DNA of 13,282 bases, from positions 1-13,282 of the forward strand of contig WOZY01000064.1 of assembly GCA_011620045.1 (NCBI GenBank). The letters run 5' to 3'. Below the pieces are notes generated by a model, which saw only the letters and a program-made list of their open reading frames with translations, made no database searches and was not told the origin of the DNA. A program made the translations under genes and the position numbers. The stretch comes from Mesotoga sp. (GTDB lineage Bacteria > Thermotogota > Thermotogae > Petrotogales > Kosmotogaceae). Shown piece by piece: positions 6,299-13,282 of the stretch (its first letter is position 1; each line of letters opens with the position of its first letter).

Positions 6299-6833
6299 TA
6301 TCTTTACCTCCTTGAGGAGCTGCCTTTGGCTTGAGAATCATCCACATATCTCTTCCCTCCAACTTTGGAGGCCGATCGATATCGGAAATCTGCTGTAGCT
6401 GATCTGCAACTCTTTCGAGAATCTCTCTTCCTTTATCTGAAAAGACGATTTCCCTGCCTCTGAACATTATGACGACCCTAACTTTACTTCCCTTTTCAAG
6501 GAATTCTTTGATCCTGTTCGTCTTAGTCTGGAAATCATGCTCATCAATCCTGATCCTGAATTTCATCTCTTTAAGCTGTGACTGCTTGGTCTTCTTCTTG
6601 GCTTCCTTCTTTCGCTTGTCCTTTTCGTACTTATACTTTCCGTAATCCATGATTCTTGCTACCGGCGGATTTGCCGCTGGTGCCACAAGAACTAGATCTA
6701 GACCCTTTTCTCTGGCAATCTTAAGCGCTTCTGATGTCTGGACAACACCCAGCTGTTCCCCGTTAATGTCAACAAGTCTCACCGTCTTCGTCATTATTTC
6801 ATTGTTTTTCGGTGTTGAATCACCTCTTGCGAT
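6267..6833 (-). CDS. infC: translation initiation factor IF-3, probable AUC start
   Basis: Binds the 30S subunit, checks start codon-anticodon pairing and blocks premature 50S joining. The N-domain shows VRLVDINGEQLGV, the linker has KKEAKKKTKQ, and the C-domain shows KEMKFRIRIDEHDF and RVVIMFRGREI. The first in-frame ATG (6794) has no nearby ribosome site and would cut off the conserved NNEI segment before VRLV. Extending upstream without a stop reaches ATC at 6831-6833, exactly 7 nt after GAGGTG (6841-6846). I take ATC as the start, giving 188 residues beginning MARGDSTPKNNEI. Non-AUG infC starts (AUU in E. coli) are a known autoregulatory device, since IF3 rejects such codons. The C-terminus overlaps rpmI by 32 nt. 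If databases use ATG, they list 175 residues. Confidence 0.93.
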   Translation of the reverse strand: MARGDSTPKNNEIMTKTVRLVDINGEQLGVVQTSEALKIAREKGLDLVLVAPAANPPVARIMDYGKYKYEKDKRKKEAKKKTKQSQLKEMKFRIRIDEHDFQTKTNRIKEFLEKGSKVRVVIMFRGREIVFSDKGREILERVADQLQQISDIDRPPKLEGRDMWMILKPKAAPQGGKDNGQQSKNEDS

Positions 6834-6840
6834 ACTACAT

Positions 6841-6848
6841 CACCTCTC
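6841..6848 (-). promoter_or_regulatory. ribosome binding site fixing the infC AUC start
   Basis: GAGAGGTG followed by AT pairs over seven bases with the anti-Shine-Dalgarno (AGGTGAT). Its GAGGTG core lies 7 nt before the ATC at 6833. The only other codon near it, an ATG at 6840, overlaps the site and is followed at once by TAG. A second GAGGTGATT at 6819-6827 inside the gene lies too far from the ATG at 6794. Confidence 0.7.
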
Positions 6849-6875
6849 AAAAAAAATTGGCGGAATATCCCGCCA
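6849..6875 (-). terminator. intrinsic terminator/attenuator before infC
   Basis: TGGCGG (from 6875) pairs with CCGCCA around the loop GATATT, and eight T follow at 6849-6856. It lies downstream of tRNA-Lys and immediately upstream of the infC ribosome site. It can therefore end tRNA transcription and also control infC operon readthrough. Confidence 0.85.
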
Positions 6876-6958
6876 TGTCAATAACCTAATTCTTAAGGTA
6901 TTGACCCCTCAACCTTCGGGCGGGGGTGGGAGAAAATCTCCACTTAGTTTACACTCTC

Positions 6959-7034
6959 TGGTGAGCCGTGCAGGGATCGAACCTGCAACCTATTGATTAA
7001 GAATCAATCGCTCTGCCTGCTGAGCTAACGGCCC
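6959..7034 (-). tRNA. tRNA-Lys (anticodon CUU), CCA encoded
   Basis: A 76-nt cloverleaf. The acceptor GGGCCGT pairs with ACGGCTC, with one G-U pair. The D stem is GCTC/GAGC and the anticodon stem ATTGA/TCAAT, with loop TTCTTAA giving CUU. The variable loop is AGGTT, the T arm is GCAGG-TTCGATC-CCTGC, the discriminator is A, and the CCA is genomic. It begins about 14 nt after the -10 box of a strong promoter and lies upstream of the infC leader on the same strand. Confidence 0.97.
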
Positions 7035-7047
7035 ACTAACGGTATTT

Positions 7048-7076
7048 ATTGTATCTCATGGGAATGAACCTGTCAA
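7048..7076 (-). promoter_or_regulatory. sigma-A promoter for tRNA-Lys and the infC operon
   Basis: On the minus strand, TTGACA (7071-7076) and TACAAT (7048-7053) are separated by exactly 17 bp. The tRNA 5' end is 13 nt past the -10 box, so the transcript should start a few bases before it. The -35 box is only 7 nt beyond the stop codon of the upstream hydrolase, and no terminator lies between. Readthrough from upstream is therefore also possible. Confidence 0.9.
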
Positions 7077-7083
7077 CCGGGTT

Positions 7084-7887
7084 TCAAACGTATAGATCGT
7101 CTCTGAAGTTAGAAAAATACCCGTGAGAATCGCGACTCTCGTTGAATCGATATCTCTTGACAAGCTTGGAGTCAACATCGGCAAAAACAAAACCTTCTGC
7201 GTCACCACAATCTGCAATGATTTCCCCTGAAGGCGAAACGATTCTGCTTTCTCCGACAAAGTTCATAGACTTATTCGATCCAACTTGACTGGCCGCCGCA
7301 AGGAAGCACCCGTTCTCAATTGAACGAGCTCTGGTCGCAGTTTCGTAAATCGTTTTTCTCTCTCTTCCAAAAGCGAATGGAACCAAGAGAACCTCGGCTC
7401 CTTGCCTGCAGAGTTTTCTTGAGATTTCGGGGAACCCGATTTCATAGCACATAAGTAGTCCAAACTTCACACCCAAATACTCAAAAGACCTGAATTCTTT
7501 GCCAGGAGTGAAGACTTTTTTTTCTTCGCGGAAAAGGTGAGTTTTGTTGTAGTAGACCGCTTCAAGATAAGGAAGCATTATTACAGTGGAATTGAAAAGA
7601 CCGTCTTTCGTCTTGTTCACCATTCCGCCAACAATGGCAATGTCATTGTAATCGGCAAGCGCCGAAAGAACTTCTTCTGTCTCCTACTGCATCTCGACTG
7701 CATTTTTGACAGTGGCTTCATCGGTTCCATATCCGCTGTTAAACATCTCTGGAAGAACAACAATGTTCACATCTTCTTCAACAAGGCTCTCAATATAGCT
7801 TGTCGCCTTCTCCAGATTCTCACCAGGCTCATCATTATCTGCTTTGAACTGAACAATACCAATTCTGATTCTCTCCGTTCTACTCAT
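7084..7887 (-). pseudogene. carbon-nitrogen hydrolase (nitrilase superfamily) with in-frame TAG
   Basis: Family members hydrolyse amides or nitriles in the cytoplasm; the substrate is unknown here. ATG at 7887 opens IRIGIVQFKADN, and the frame continues to 7084 with one interruption, a TAG at 7684-7686 (codon 68). The coding sense is continuous on both sides: before it, VVLPEMFNSGYG; after it, ADYNDIAIVGGMV, in the same frame. The catalytic triad is complete but split by the stop: Glu47 before it, Lys115 (YYNKTHLF) and Cys147 (LLMCYEIGFPE) after. Full length would be 267 residues, normal for the family. A truncated 67-residue product would be inactive, and the 179-residue C-terminal part lacks the Glu. 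The most likely readings are a recent nonsense mutation or a sequencing error. It overlaps the upstream membrane-protein gene by 8 nt. Confidence 0.85.
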
Positions 7888-8374
7888 ACTTGTCTTCACC
7901 ATCCCGTTCAAAAGGAGTCCTCGCAATGGGTTTCAGAATTCTTCTAAGATCCTGACCCGCAACTAAAATCATTAGAACCGCAGCAAGCATGATTCCGCCA
8001 CTTCCCAACCTAACATTTGCGATTCTGCCTATCGCCACTCCAACAAGAGTCCAATACAAAAGTGAAAAGGCAACCGCCAACAGCTTCTTATGGTGAAGAA
8101 ATCCGTAGAATCCCGATACTGCTTGCGCCGCGGCGAGAATAAGAACTTCACCTCCGTACATTGTGCCAGTTGTATCTTGAAAGTAGCCAAATACGAGAAC
8201 AACATAAAAGAGAAAAAGGGTAAGATTCTGGATTCTCGAAACACGAACTGTCTTGTTTCCAAGAATCATGCCCATGAAAACTAGAAAAGCAGCTGTCGCC
8301 GAAAACAAAAACGAGTAATTAAGAAACGGCATCAGAACAAGTGGAACGAGAGAAAAGATGATTCTGTAAAGCAT
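7880..8374 (-). CDS. hypothetical polytopic membrane protein
   Basis: 164 residues, no family recognised. About six hydrophobic segments can be seen, near residues 4-18, 21-39, 50-65, 75-94, 98-116 and 123-140. They are followed by a charged cytoplasmic-looking tail (RRILKPIARTPFERDGEDKYE). There are no obvious catalytic motifs. The ATG at 8374 shares a base with the TGA of the upstream TPR gene (TGATG), so coupling is likely. Its stop overlaps the start of the carbon-nitrogen hydrolase. The three genes thus form one translational unit, but no common function is apparent. Confidence 0.75.
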   Translation of the reverse strand: MLYRIIFSLVPLVLMPFLNYSFLFSATAAFLVFMGMILGNKTVRVSRIQNLTLFLFYVVLVFGYFQDTTGTMYGGEVLILAAAQAVSGFYGFLHHKKLLAVAFSLLYWTLVGVAIGRIANVRLGSGGIMLAAVLMILVAGQDLRRILKPIARTPFERDGEDKYE

Positions 8375-9090
8375 CAGTATCCGTTATCTTCCAGCCACTT
8401 CTTAGCCTTTTCCTTCGACTCCTGGCCTTCAGCCACGAAATCGGTCTGAATTTCCATCTCAAGAACCTTCCTGTAGTATTGTGCGGCCAAATCCTTCTTT
8501 TTCCATACCTGATAAAGGAGGGCAAGCTCGTAGTAACTATTGATATACGCAGGATCGTTTTCAATGGCCTTCAGGAATCGTTCTTCCGACTTTCCGTAAT
8601 TTCGGTATGGCCAGGGCGTATCCCTATCTCTCATACCTTTGGCAATAAAGGGAAATGGACTGTCTGGCATTAGTTCCATAGCCTTATCTATACTCTTATC
8701 GAAGTCGGTAATCAGGAAGATAGATTGAATTATCCCAGCCATCTGAGCAAGCTGTCCTATCGCCGCCCCTTTGACGTAGTAGGCCATCCCATAGGAATCG
8801 TCCATGTCTATAGCCTTTTCTGCAAGCTCCCTTGCTTTCTCATAGTGAGTTTCTCTATCTTTCTTGTCTTCTATCCAGTTTGCATATTCTCTGTGAGAAT
8901 CTGCAAGCAACGTGAGAATTTCTATGTCTTCCAAATCCTCTGACTCGAGTCTCTCTATGAAGTTGGCCATTAGTTCAGTGTTCTGTACAGCCCTTATCTG
9001 AACAAACTCAGATTGGAGCGTCTCGAAATCCGAAGCAACAAAGAGTGATGAAAACAGAACCAAGAAAGAGATTAATACCAGTTTCTTCAT
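8374..9090 (-). CDS. exported tetratricopeptide-repeat protein
   Basis: 238 residues, beginning with a signal peptide: MKK, a hydrophobic core to about residue 19 (LVLISFLVLFSSLFVAS), then an acidic mature start. No lipobox Cys is present, so it should be periplasmic or anchored by its leader. The rest is helical with TPR-like repeats near 55-97, 101-146, 150-182 and 183-212. The clearest is AYINSYYELALLYQVWKKKD. It is likely a scaffold or binding protein; the partner is unknown. It recalls TPR proteins that accompany TRAP transporters, but no transporter is nearby. ATG at 9090 was chosen because AGGAGGTG ends 9 nt before it. The GTG at 9102 lies inside that site. It is the first gene of the leftward unit, transcribed from the AT-rich gap shared with thiI. 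Confidence 0.75.
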   Translation of the reverse strand: MKKLVLISFLVLFSSLFVASDFETLQSEFVQIRAVQNTELMANFIERLESEDLEDIEILTLLADSHREYANWIEDKKDRETHYEKARELAEKAIDMDDSYGMAYYVKGAAIGQLAQMAGIIQSIFLITDFDKSIDKAMELMPDSPFPFIAKGMRDRDTPWPYRNYGKSEERFLKAIENDPAYINSYYELALLYQVWKKKDLAAQYYRKVLEMEIQTDFVAEGQESKEKAKKWLEDNGY

Positions 9091-9102
9091 GTAAAGGAAC
9101 AC

Positions 9103-9171
9103 CTCCTAAGTAAGATTGTATGATAGGAATATTATATAACTACAATAATAAAAACAACCTGGAGGTACTTC
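9103..9171. promoter_or_regulatory. divergent promoter region between the TPR gene and thiI
   Basis: An AT-rich 69-bp gap serving two divergent genes. ATTGTA (9115-9120) and TACAAT (9141-9146) form an inverted repeat. Each can act as a -10 box on one strand, with the opposite element as a poor -35 (TTGTAT or TTGTAG, 19-bp spacing). TATAAT is also present on the minus strand at 9131-9136. Ribosome sites flank the gap: AGGAGGTG toward the TPR gene and GGAGGT (9161-9166) toward thiI. Exact promoters cannot be fixed by eye. Confidence 0.45.
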
Positions 9172-11112
9172 ATGGATAGATTCGTAGTAGTGAGATATGG
9201 CGAAATTGCTCTAAAGCAGGGAAACAGAAAACTCTTCGAAAAGGTCCTGTCAAACAACATAAAGAGACAATTAGGAAAGTCGACTGTCGAAAGGATCAGG
9301 GGGCGAATAATTGTCACTGTGCCTTCTGATAAGCTGCAAACGGCCATGGAAGTAATGTCTCGGACATTTGGGATCCAGAACTACAGTTTGGGGACGTGGA
9401 CAACTTACGATCTTGAGGACATTTATTTGACTTCCACCGACCTTGCAAAGAGGGAGGTCGAGAGGGGTAACAGAACCTTTAAAGTAGAGACGCGAAGGCT
9501 CGACAAGCGATTTCCTTTGAAAAGCGTCGAACTAAATCCTCTTGTGGGGGAGCGGATTCTTGAAGAGATCCCCGAGACTTCCGTCGATCTTCACAATCCG
9601 AATTTCAAGATCGAGATTGAGGTAAGGGATGAAGGAGTTCTCATTTCATGCGGAAAAACAAGTGCGAACGGAGGTCTCCCTGTCGGAGTAAGCGGTAGGG
9701 CTATTCTGCTGCTTTCTGGAGGAATCGATAGTCCCGTCTCCGGTTGGCTCGCCCAGAAGAGGGGATTAGATCTCGACGCCATTCACTTCTCCAGTCCGCC
9801 ATACACCGGAGAGAAGGCTTTCGACAAAGTTCTCTCTCTTGCGAAATCCCTTTCCCTATACAATGGAGGCAGGGAGTTTAGACTATATTCAATTCACTTC
9901 ACAGAAGCTCAGATTGCCGTTCACAAACATGTTGAAGAGAGATATAGCCTTGTCTGTCAGAGAAGGTTAATGATGAGGATCACAAGCAGAATTGCTGAAA
10001 TGAATAGGATAATCGCTGTCGTGACAGGAGAGAACCTTGGCCAGGTGGCGAGTCAAACTCTCGAGAATCTAAGAGTAATTGAAGAACAGACAGATTTGAT
10101 AGTGCTCAGGCCTTTGCTCACTTACGATAAAATCGAGACTATAGAGCTTGCCAAGAGAATCGGGACGTTTGAGACGTCAATACTGCCTTATGAAGACTGT
10201 TGTACGGTGTTCGTGCCGTCGAGTCCCGCAACAAAGGCAAGACTATTTGACATCAACCGGGTAGAAGCCGGGCTGGACTTTGAAGACTTGACGACGAAAT
10301 CCCTGAACAAGTCGAAAATGTACAGAATGAAGAATGGTGAGATATTGGAGGTAGGGGAATTGAGATTCCTGAAAAAGCTACTTAGTCTGGTAGTCACTGT
10401 CTGGATAGCCGTGCTTGGAGTCCTTTACATCTATGTCTATGGAGGAATCGTGATCCTTATCGGAAACTTGATAGGCAAAATGAAAGGGAAGAAAGAGAGA
10501 AAGACTTTCATCTCGAGAGAAGTCTCGAGATTTGGCAGAGCTGCCTTTGTACTTTCGGGATCAAAGGTCAGGGTAGCAGGTAAGGAAAATGTGCCCCAGA
10601 AAGGACCAATGGTAATCGTCGCAAATCATCAAAGCGCCTTCGACATACCGCTCATACCTGGCTACGTCTATCCGGAAATATCTTTCATAGCAAAGAAAGA
10701 GCTGTCGAGAATTCCAGGTGTCAACTGGTTCATAAGCGCTCTTGACGGAGTATACATTGAGAGGGGAAACAGATCGCAAACAGCAGGTGCTATGAGAAAG
10801 ATCTTCAGAATACTGAAAGAGGACGGGACAATTCTGCTTTTTCCGGAAGGAACCCGCAGCACAACCGGTGAAATTGGAGAATTCAAAGAAGGGAGTCTTT
10901 CAATACCTTTCAAACTTGGAGTAAAAGTCATCCCAGTGGCTCTAGACGGAACTCGTAATCTTCTGCAGAAGAACAGTTTTCTTATCACTCCGTCAAGGAT
11001 CTCTCTTGCCATATCTAAGCCGGTTTTGCCGGAAGATTTCGCTTCCGAAAAAGAGTTCAGCGAAGGAGTCTATAATATAATTAGAGATGCATTGGAATCA
11101 CTTAGAAATTGA
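9172..11112 (+). CDS. thiI: ThiI tRNA 4-thiouridine synthase fused to a PlsC-like acyltransferase
   Basis: One unbroken 646-codon frame. Residues 1-395 are ThiI, which adenylates and thiolates U8 of tRNA. They comprise an N-terminal ferredoxin-like and THUMP region to about 165 and a PP-loop domain with SGGIDSPV (182-189). PYEDCCTVFVP carries Cys343/344 at the position of the conserved ThiI cysteine. No C-terminal rhodanese domain is present. Residues 397-646 are a 1-acyl-glycerol-3-phosphate acyltransferase-like module, making phosphatidate at the membrane. It has hydrophobic segments at about 402-433, NHQSAFD (485-491, His486/Asp491), FPEGTRS (557-563) and VIPVALDGTRN. No stop codon separates them. 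At the junction GGAGGT lies 7 nt before a TTG at codon 397, so the acyltransferase may also, or only, be made separately. ATG at 9172 has GGAGGT 5 nt upstream. First gene of the plus-strand operon. Confidence 0.9.
   Translation: MDRFVVVRYGEIALKQGNRKLFEKVLSNNIKRQLGKSTVERIRGRIIVTVPSDKLQTAMEVMSRTFGIQNYSLGTWTTYDLEDIYLTSTDLAKREVERGNRTFKVETRRLDKRFPLKSVELNPLVGERILEEIPETSVDLHNPNFKIEIEVRDEGVLISCGKTSANGGLPVGVSGRAILLLSGGIDSPVSGWLAQKRGLDLDAIHFSSPPYTGEKAFDKVLSLAKSLSLYNGGREFRLYSIHFTEAQIAVHKHVEERYSLVCQRRLMMRITSRIAEMNRIIAVVTGENLGQVASQTLENLRVIEEQTDLIVLRPLLTYDKIETIELAKRIGTFETSILPYEDCCTVFVPSSPATKARLFDINRVEAGLDFEDLTTKSLNKSKMYRMKNGEILEVGELRFLKKLLSLVVTVWIAVLGVLYIYVYGGIVILIGNLIGKMKGKKERKTFISREVSRFGRAAFVLSGSKVRVAGKENVPQKGPMVIVANHQSAFDIPLIPGYVYPEISFIAKKELSRIPGVNWFISALDGVYIERGNRSQTAGAMRKIFRILKEDGTILLFPEGTRSTTGEIGEFKEGSLSIPFKLGVKVIPVALDGTRNLLQKNSFLITPSRISLAISKPVLPEDFASEKEFSEGVYNIIRDALESLRN
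10347..10362 (+). promoter_or_regulatory. internal ribosome binding site and TTG at the ThiI-PlsC junction
   Basis: GGAGGT (10347-10352), a 7-nt spacer, then TTG (10360-10362) in frame with the acyltransferase. The resulting 250-residue protein would start just before its membrane segment, as free-standing PlsC proteins do. In the +1 frame relative to ThiI, TAG (10352-10354) and TGA (10361-10363) occur here. An ancestral or true ThiI end at this point would therefore need a single-base frame change upstream. Confidence 0.55.
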
Positions 11113-11122
11113 GGTGGGTTTT

Positions 11123-11656
11123 ATGTTGCAGGTAAGACTTAGAGGGTTGGCTCTCGACCAGAGTAATTCCCCGGTAGTCATACTGGAAGTTGAAAAGACA
11201 AACAAAGGGTTTGGAATATGGATCGGCCCATTTGAAGCAGAGGCTCTTGCCCTTGCTGTTAGTGGAAAAGACTTTCCGAGGCCTTTGACGTATGATCTCT
11301 TTCTAAATACAGTCTCACAACTTGGGGGTACTTTCGAAAAGGCGGTGATTGGGCAGGTAAAAGACAATATCTATTACGCGACTCTACATCTGCAGGATCG
11401 GAACGGTCAATTGCACGTAATAGATGCTCGCCCATCGGACTGTCTAGTGCTTGCCGTTAAGAATGGTTTCCCAATTTTCGTAGAAGATGCTGTATTCGCG
11501 GAGAGTTCAATCGATCTGAGCAACCTTCAGACTGACACTCTTCAGCACGGTCAGGAAGAGGAAAATGAAGGCTTCAAGAAGTTCGTTGAAAATCTTGACA
11601 TTGAAGAGCTCAAAAAACACTTTAGAGGAAAAGACGAGAACAATGAATCTAGCTGA
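11123..11656 (+). CDS. bifunctional nuclease family (DUF151/BFN) protein
   Basis: 177 residues. The DUF151 domain fills residues 1-135: GFGIWIGPFEAEALALAVSG, RPLTYDLFLNTVSQLGG, NIYYATLHLQ and the hallmark IDARPSDCLVLAVKNGFPIFV. Related plant and bacterial proteins have reported RNase/DNase activity, but the physiological role in bacteria is unclear. The tail (about 140-177) is Glu/Asp/Lys-rich with a short helix, FKKFVENLDIEELKKHF. ATG at 11123 was chosen because GAGGTG (11111-11116) is 6 nt upstream. A longer frame from 11087 would run back into the acyltransferase gene. From memory, Thermotoga maritima also has a DUF151 gene beside its prenyl synthase gene (TM0160/TM0161), so this neighbourhood looks conserved. 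Confidence 0.92.
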   Translation: MLQVRLRGLALDQSNSPVVILEVEKTNKGFGIWIGPFEAEALALAVSGKDFPRPLTYDLFLNTVSQLGGTFEKAVIGQVKDNIYYATLHLQDRNGQLHVIDARPSDCLVLAVKNGFPIFVEDAVFAESSIDLSNLQTDTLQHGQEEENEGFKKFVENLDIEELKKHFRGKDENNESS

Positions 11657-12482
11657 ATTTACACCCTTTTTCAACATGAATCTCAGAAGGTTTCTCGATG
11701 AACTAGACCTTTATGAACCTTTGAAAGAAGTAGTCTCTTATACCCCTCTGGCTGGTGGAAAGAGACTCAGAGCGTATCTTATCTGGGAACTATCGAGATT
11801 CACTGACTTTGGGGAGGAAAATGCTTTAAAGACAGGAATTGCTGTGGAACTCTTCCATAGCGGAAGTTTGATCCACGATGATCTCCCTGCAATAGACAAC
11901 GATACAACAAGGCGGGGTTTACCATCTAGTCACGTGAAATTCGGTGAGTGCAAGGCCATATTGGCCGGGGATTTCCTTATGTTGTACCCCTCAGAACTCC
12001 TCTCTTCTCTAGATATCGAAAGCAGTTCTAAGCTGAAGCTATTGAAACTCTGGCAAGAGACTTCTTTGGAGGTTGTTAAAGGTGAGTTCGAAGACGTCTT
12101 TCCCGAAAACAAGTCAAGAGAACAAATGGAGAGGATTCACAGTGCCAAGACAGGTTCTCTTTTCGGGTTCTGTTTCGCAGCTCCATTTGCCGGGAAAAAG
12201 GAAGAGAAACTCGTTCAAATGCGCCAACTCGGGCTGAGATTCGGCAAATTGTTTCAGATGATGGATGACATAAAAGATGTAACATCTACCGAAACCGAGC
12301 TTGGAAAGACGCCGGGAAAAGATGGTAAACAAGACAAACTCACTATACTTTCGTTCGAATCCCTTGAGGAAGCCCAAATGAAAGTCAAAGAGATGTTTCT
12401 CCGCCTTCTGGAAGAAATCGAAGAATTCTCTGACCTTTCAGAAGAAATGGTAAATGTATACGACCTGATTGCCAGGCGCTGA
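11643..12482 (+). CDS. polyprenyl diphosphate synthase (IspA/GGPPS family)
   Basis: Condenses IPP with allylic diphosphates to make C15-C20 or longer isoprenoid diphosphates. ATG at 11643 gives 279 residues, slightly short for the family (about 290-300), and overlaps the DUF151 gene by 14 nt. Its ribosome site (AGAGGA) is weak and distant, so coupling is likely. GGKRLRAYLIWE lies at 38-49. The first aspartate motif, DDLPAIDND, is at 79-87 and the second, DDIKD, at 208-212. GKTPGKDGKQDKLT follows at 221-234. The residue five before the first DD is Gly, not the Tyr of E. coli farnesyl synthase, so a product longer than C15 is possible. The usual GQxxD is GEFED here (148-152). From memory, T. 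maritima TM0161 also has Glu. Its stop is one base from the convergent kinase stop. Confidence 0.93.
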   Translation: MNLAEFTPFFNMNLRRFLDELDLYEPLKEVVSYTPLAGGKRLRAYLIWELSRFTDFGEENALKTGIAVELFHSGSLIHDDLPAIDNDTTRRGLPSSHVKFGECKAILAGDFLMLYPSELLSSLDIESSSKLKLLKLWQETSLEVVKGEFEDVFPENKSREQMERIHSAKTGSLFGFCFAAPFAGKKEEKLVQMRQLGLRFGKLFQMMDDIKDVTSTETELGKTPGKDGKQDKLTILSFESLEEAQMKVKEMFLRLLEEIEEFSDLSEEMVNVYDLIARR

Positions 12483-12483
12483 A

Positions 12484-13282
12484 TCAGAATCCAAAGAATC
12501 TTGACTTCAAGGCCCTTCTGAAACTGGTCGCATCAGAGTACCTTTTCTCTGAGAGTAATGCCATTGATTTGCCGAGAATTCGCTTGGCTCTTCTTGAAAA
12601 CGTATCGAAGATGAGAGGTACTCCCTTAACCCTTTCTGTCGATGGAACAGGATCCTCTCCACTCAGAAGAAAGTATAGAATCCCCCCAACTGAATACACA
12701 TCCCATGAGTAGTTTGGTGGCGAAGAAGAATAGAATTTCTCGGGACAAGTGTAACTGAGGGAAACCACTTTCGAGAGAGAAATAAGGAACACATCCTTTA
12801 GACAGGCTCCACCGAAATCCATTACTTTTACTTTTCCATCATCTGTGAGCATTACGTTGGTAGGTTTTAAGTCGCCATGAATATAACCTCTTTCGTGAAT
12901 AGACGATACTCCTTCAAGTATGCTGTCTAGCACTTCAAAAGCCTTTGCATCGTTCATCACGCCCTCGTCTTTTACTGAATCCTTCAAAGTCTTTCCACTT
13001 ATGAACTCCATCACATAGTAAGCGGTGTTATTCTCTGTGAAAAGGTCTAGAACCTTAACAACTCTGTCATCTTCGATTCTGGACATTATTGTGAATTCCT
13101 CAGAGAAGGATGAAAGCTTGTCGAAATAGATCTCTCTCAGGTCATCGCTCACCGGTTTGACGTTGTTGCCTTCTCTTTCTACACCTCTGGGAAAGAACTC
13201 TTTCACGGCGACATTATTTCCCTTGTGAAAGTCAAAGCATAGATAAGTTAAACCGAATCCACCCCTACCCAACGGCTTGATA
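12484..13282 (-). CDS. Hanks-type Ser/Thr protein kinase, N-terminus outside window
   Basis: The frame is open to the window edge; the first visible residues are IKPLGRGGFGLTYLCFD, so only a short N-terminal piece is missing. The TTG at 13272 is the middle of the Gly-loop region, not a start. Numbering from the first visible codon, the Gly loop GRGGFG is at 5-10 and Lys27 of VAVKEFFP should contact ATP. The KEFFPRG segment marks a bacterial subgroup. The catalytic loop is HGDLKPTNVM (HGD in place of HRD), and DFG occurs in VMDFGGA. The APE motif is CPE (SYTCPEKFY), followed by SWDVYSVGGILYFLLSG. The protein ends shortly after the kinase domain, with no PASTA repeats or membrane segment, so it should be soluble. 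The substrate is unknown. Its stop nearly touches that of the convergent prenyl synthase gene. Confidence 0.92.
   Translation of the reverse strand, partial: IKPLGRGGFGLTYLCFDFHKGNNVAVKEFFPRGVEREGNNVKPVSDDLREIYFDKLSSFSEEFTIMSRIEDDRVVKVLDLFTENNTAYYVMEFISGKTLKDSVKDEGVMNDAKAFEVLDSILEGVSSIHERGYIHGDLKPTNVMLTDDGKVKVMDFGGACLKDVFLISLSKVVSLSYTCPEKFYSSSPPNYSWDVYSVGGILYFLLSGEDPVPSTERVKGVPLIFDTFSRRAKRILGKSMALLSEKRYSDATSFRRALKSRFFGF

Follow-up and report, generated by a model that had tools for sequence, protein, structure and literature searches.

The window analysed here, a 13,282-nucleotide stretch of Mesotoga sp. DNA, carries a single plus-strand reading frame in which the tRNA-modifying protein ThiI runs on into the acyltransferase PlsC. 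The arrangement raises the question of whether the locus encodes a bifunctional protein, whether one mRNA yields both a fusion and a free acyltransferase, or whether two neighbouring genes have been joined by a change of frame, be it in the organism or only in an assembly that is fragmented (317 contigs) and 78.86% complete. The features of the locus are as follows.

9172..11112, + strand: merged reading frame, 646 codons plus a TGA stop
9172..10359, + strand: thiI part, residues 1–396, a rhodanese-less ThiI (domain and profile matches, structure relatives)
10347..10352, + strand: Shine-Dalgarno sequence GGAGGT of plsC, within thiI codons (in nine of nine aligned genomes)
10353..10359, + strand: spacer with a GGGG run, 7 nt, site of a one-nucleotide length difference (8 nt in eight of eight same-genus relatives)
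10360..11112, + strand: plsC read from TTG, 250 codons and a stop codon (domain matches, relatives' alignment)
10383..10385, + strand: former thiI stop TAG, now out of frame (window held against the relatives' alignment)

The merged frame and its two parts

The frame at 9172–11112 contains no internal stop, and its 646-residue product has a computed mass of 72.4 kDa. Reading frame and domain scores agree with the preliminary description, made from the DNA letters, of a complete rhodanese-less ThiI followed by a complete PlsC, and its placement of GGAGGT, a 7-nt spacer and TTG at the joint (10347–10362) is confirmed. Because both domains exceed curated cut-offs and the ribosome site and TTG are kept in nine of nine matching genomes of the genus, the joint arrangement is, as far as sequence can tell, more than chance would produce.

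Within the ThiI part, hmmscan located ThiI_fer at residues 5–72, THUMP at 80–159 and ThiI at 172–368, and no rhodanese family matched the merged protein at E 0.001. The TIGR00342 profile (ThiI, tRNA uracil 4-sulfurtransferase) scored 359.5 bits against a curated cut-off of 264.5. The PP-loop signature SGGxDS appears as SGGIDSP from residue 182 and the conserved cysteine region as PYEDCCT from residue 339, with Cys343 and Cys344 invariant among 12 aligned ThiI sequences. The ThiI part would be expected to synthesize s4U8. The C-terminal tail of ThiI, which PlsC replaces in the window, is variable among relatives. Solved structures related in sequence comprise 1vbk, which matches the first 235 residues of the merged protein, 2c5s (residues 4–383), presumably the ThiI of B. 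anthracis, and 4kr6 (residues 3–365), which we take to be the T. maritima ThiI of PMC4041423. In the excerpted text of that paper the T. maritima enzyme is a dimer whose three domains end at residue 388.

The PlsC part is equally complete. Its PF01553 acyltransferase domain (residues 465–591) scored 115.3 bits against a cut-off of 23, and TIGR00530 (AGP acyltransferase) scored 113.3 bits against 102.95. The motifs HX4D and FPEGTR define PlsC; here they occur as NHQSAFD from residue 485 and FPEGTR from residue 557. Acyltransferase activity is a prediction. Translation from the TTG at 10360–10362 would give an inner product of 250 residues with a computed mass of 27.7 kDa. An AlphaFold2 model predicts the N-terminal two-helix membrane motif of PlsC as helices 401–438 and 440–461, and the most hydrophobic 19-residue stretch begins at residue 412. 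The solved relative 5kym matches from residue 401 onwards; excerpts of PMC10146087 identify it as the T. maritima PlsC and describe PlsC as a monotopic membrane protein anchored through its N-terminal two-helix motif.

The junction in relatives

We searched for the merged protein in 31 genomes, its own and those of relatives, and 29 matched; among the nine other genomes of the genus, eight matched and G007 did not. In every one of these eight, thiI comprises 404 codons, ends in TAG and overlaps plsC in a different frame, with the plsC TTG 26 nt before the thiI end, so that the ribosome site and start of the second gene lie inside the first. The same TTG position recurs in four further loci of the family (L015, L016, L017, and L019). 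GGAGGT and TTG are kept in the window and all eight relatives, and the spacer between them measures 7 nt in the window versus 8 nt in each relative; the window spacer is one nucleotide shorter, and the thiI and plsC frames are therefore merged. One option raised in the preliminary description, that a change of frame had joined two genes, is thus borne out by all eight matching genomes of the genus. Its remark that TAG and TGA stand at the junction in the +1 frame is correct (10352 and 10361), but it is the other alternative frame that holds the old thiI end, at TAG 10383–10385. Set against these relatives, the fusion is not ancestral.

In the genus, plsC most likely starts, behind a strong Shine-Dalgarno sequence of its own, at the TTG 26 nt before the thiI end. 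In three of the eight relatives (L004, L010, and L011) the open plsC frame extends further upstream, with an ATG at −53, so that a longer PlsC is possible there and TTG is the likeliest, not the sole, start. Since the Shine-Dalgarno sequence and TTG are kept in relatives with separate genes, the inner ribosome site is, by that conservation, the ordinary plsC start and did not evolve within a fusion. The layout further suggests that the thiI-plsC pair of the genus is probably translationally coupled.

Across the phylum Thermotogota, 95 of 103 genomes matched at E 1e-40 or better, and among the matches listed, which cover 84 of these 95, a stop-free match across both parts occurs in the window only. 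By a hand count of the matches listed, the two genes are neighbours, thiI first, in at least 52 of the 102 other genomes (the adjacency in G022 being taken from the 31-genome search); elsewhere they are widely separated on one contig (e.g., G067–G070) or placed on separate contigs. Several loci come close to merging. In G014 (L012) the two genes share one frame with TGAATG between them, and in L165 (G083), L166 (G082), and L167 (G084) a single TAG separates them in one frame. That TAG belongs to TAGGAGG, apparently the ribosome site. We also observed, at L031 (G022:C1, about 184601–186164), a nearly whole plsC match beside thiI in pieces (query 4–85, 91–177, and 320–394), as if decayed, and, at G052:C1:2264936–2266914, an apparently reversed order in which plsC directly precedes thiI, both on one strand.

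Among the best 120 of 7,999 protein-database matches, ThiI-like proteins had at most 423 residues and none was a fusion, and a comparison of the PlsC region with fusion-length proteins returned 24 proteins that all lack the ThiI family PF02568. Because the database entries represent 90%-identity clusters, a second fusion may sit hidden within a cluster. We reject an ancestral or widespread fusion, as none appeared among the listed phylum matches, the best 120 of 7,999, or the 24 long PlsC-domain proteins. The locus thus has the stop-free frame through both parts that marks an established gene fusion, while the occurrence in more than one genome that also marks one is absent from the matches listed for 84 genomes and from the protein database rows. 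We did not find a ThiI-PlsC fusion in open-licence papers; for Mesotoga and gene fusion, these yielded one paper, on alcohol dehydrogenase fusions.

A lost base or a missed one

The deletion is present in the consensus sequence; its presence in the organism has to be argued. The main rival explanation, which we hold to be unlikely while taking it seriously, is a sequencing or assembly error, in which case the two genes would overlap in the organism as they ordinarily do, and one base at a short G run would be missing from the consensus. The length difference does fall at such a run (four G in the window, five in G002 and G009), the case is a singleton among the phylum matches listed, the assembly is fragmented and incomplete, and the same contig holds another window-specific gene-breaking change, an in-frame TAG at 7684–7686 that is found in none of eight relatives. 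The gene that it interrupts (7084–7926, − strand) is presumably a carbon-nitrogen hydrolase, judging from its sequence. We rejected poor quality of the contig overall, since the hydrolase break is an in-frame stop and not an indel, and neither excess indels nor odd substitutions were seen.

An indel survey bears indirectly on this rival. We compared 81 of the 317 contigs, the window among them (384,770 of 1,745,902 nt), with 781,319 nt of the relative G009. The alignments came to 95.8 kb at a mean identity of 91.2% and took in 81 ORFs (72.3 kb) of 150 aa or longer. Frameshifting indels occurred in eight ORFs, two of which were compensated (net zero) and dropped, and the six remaining net indels are all found no more than 41 nt from an ORF edge, with none deeper. 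Two are at a 3′ edge, namely the thiI-plsC junction and one in L068, and four are at the 5′ edge of stop-to-stop ORFs, whose true start may lie further in. Edge zones of this width, counted at either end, account for about 9% of the surveyed ORF sequence, so that randomly placed errors would rarely give six of six at edges, with the proviso that the 41-nt limit was picked after seeing the data. Zero interior cases in about 66 kb set a ceiling of roughly 3 per 66 kb on random indel errors, and the other 3′-edge indel is one among 80 ORF ends. On a rough estimate, these edge and interior rates favour a genuine indel several-fold in the few tens of nucleotides that permit a merger.

The other comparisons point the same way. 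Window-specific substitutions fall at codon positions 1:2:3 as 26:16:52 (14:14:38 for G005), and 70 of 99 are transitions (49 of 68 for G005), a normal pattern without sign of many random errors. In comparison with the three nearest relatives (G005 over 6485–13282 only), the junction indel is the sole frameshifting indel within a gene in 13 kb, and it occurs in the short stretch, a few tens of nucleotides long, in which its cost is least. In excerpts of PMC3711429, singleton frameshifts are said to reflect either mutation or sequencing error in general, and those near a gene's 3′ end are speculated to be likelier indel mutations than sequencing errors, relative to other places. A protein-level survey of 61 of the 317 contigs (283,554 nt) was of little help, since many of its ORFs are short and may be spurious antisense ones, and weight is placed on the indel survey instead: 82 ORFs of G009 matched G000 across 90% or more of their length, ten with stops and none in more than one frame, and the reverse direction gave 78 ORFs, 11 with stops and one in more than one frame, the thiI-plsC locus itself. 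Elsewhere in the window, at 12781, a protein-kinase-like ORF (12484–13272, − strand) has a 3-nt in-frame deletion relative to all six relatives compared. Taken together, we consider the one-base deletion likely to be genuine. The preliminary description had taken separate genes in close relatives, together with raw reads showing an indel, as the mark of an assembly artefact; the separate genes are there, but the indirect tests lean towards a genuine indel.

Products, alternative histories and known systems

We regard it as probable that the locus records a recent, isolated and probably near-neutral one-base merger of a coupled overlapping pair, with PlsC made from its own start alongside a 72-kDa ThiI-PlsC read-through product. 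In the window lineage, one nucleotide would have been lost between the Shine-Dalgarno sequence and TTG, so that the thiI frame enters plsC. Ribosomes translating thiI would continue and yield the 646-residue fusion, in which ThiI would retain its conserved domains and lose the variable tail alone, and fresh initiation at the unchanged Shine-Dalgarno-TTG site would still yield the free 250-residue PlsC. The data are compatible with the proposal in the preliminary description that one mRNA gives both a fusion and a free acyltransferase, because the inner site appears to be the normal, conserved plsC start. Counting against a genuine merger are its occurrence in one genome only among the matches listed, the fragmented assembly with its second window-specific gene break, and a longer branch for the window (0.0278) than for G005 (0.0194).

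Low dN/dS between the window and G005 (0.11 for thiI, 0.13 for plsC) indicates that both parts are kept, though it possibly reflects mostly the time before the merger. We modelled the merged chain with AlphaFold2 on a 40-row alignment (P0001, 20 ThiI relatives, and 19 PlsC relatives), which gave a mean pLDDT of 91.8 and a pTM of 0.68; the latter leaves the mutual placement of the ThiI and PlsC halves uncertain. In the model, the last ThiI strand (390–396) and the first PlsC helix (401–438) are four residues apart, which suggests that ThiI would be held near the membrane if the N-terminal helices of PlsC place the fusion there.

The age of the merger is bound up with the sister genome. The window and G005 are sisters with support of 1.000, and G005 (L004 / L054) is altered exactly where the window misses a base, reading GTTAGGGG in place of the GTAGGGGG of G002 and G009, against GTAGGGG in the window. 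The loss may accordingly be older and shared with the ancestor of G005, which would then have re-separated its genes by gaining a base; we think this variant, itself compatible with the one-base merger, rather unlikely. It needs two events, against three if the loss was separate and two adjacent bases were substituted. In 6.3 kb, though, the G005 branch shows two other cases of tandem substitution, so that such a path is not unusual and the event count settles nothing. A genuine and perhaps clade-old bifunctional ThiI-PlsC that would tether tRNA thiolation to the membrane, with free PlsC made from a second start in the same frame and the inner ribosome site setting the proportion of the two proteins, we consider improbable.

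The adaptive form of the idea, selection for a membrane-tethered ThiI beside phosphatidate synthesis with free PlsC as a second product, seems very improbable. To our knowledge, s4U8 and phosphatidate have no known link. Both parts are intact and conserved and the local structure of the modelled chain is confident, and the N-terminal anchor of PlsC (excerpts of PMC10146087) would leave space for a cytoplasmic N-terminal partner, but there is no second fusion in the listed matches, the best 120 of 7,999 or the 24 long proteins, and no sign that a fused state has been retained through time. The suggestion of a bifunctional protein tying tRNA thiolation to the membrane accordingly finds no comparative support, and we see no evidence that tRNA thiolation and lipid synthesis are physiologically tied. 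Programmed frameshifting or phase variation between thiI and plsC, with the window as one state, would draw on the overlap in another frame and on the short G run of some genomes. A run of four to five G is short for a phase-variable tract, the spacer differs among the nine genomes compared, and these have no conserved slippery sequence or repeat tract in common; we rejected this explanation as exceedingly improbable. A recent one-base merger would make the locus a clean case of overlapping coupled genes fusing through one lost base with both products retained, neither being lost because the ribosome site of the second gene sits inside the first. The fusion, if genuine, is also a domain combination that we have not met among the listed matches or in the open-licence literature.

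Each part of the merged chain closely resembles a known system. Rhodanese-less ThiI proteins (TIGR00342; 4kr6/4kr7/4kr9 and 2c5s) have the domain order, PP-loop and PYEDCC region seen in the window; they end in a short variable tail, whereas the window chain continues into PlsC. With PlsC (1-acylglycerol-3-phosphate acyltransferase; PF01553/TIGR00530; 5kym) the window shares HX4D, FPEGTR and the modelled N-terminal helices, at full length from residue 397. PlsC relatives are separate proteins of 210–286 residues (best 120 of 2,787 matches to PlsC alone), while in the window ThiI precedes PlsC. The 24 longer PlsC-domain proteins likewise carry PF01553 within a longer chain, but they lack PF02568 and are at most 39% identical to the window PlsC; their partner domains include, judging partly from Pfam numbers, phosphoserine-phosphatase and AMP-binding domains. 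A further parallel is the class of translationally coupled overlapping pairs described in excerpts of PMC3711429, in which the upstream stop lies near the downstream start, an arrangement likewise conserved in the relatives of the window. In the window, by contrast, the two frames are merged with no stop between them.
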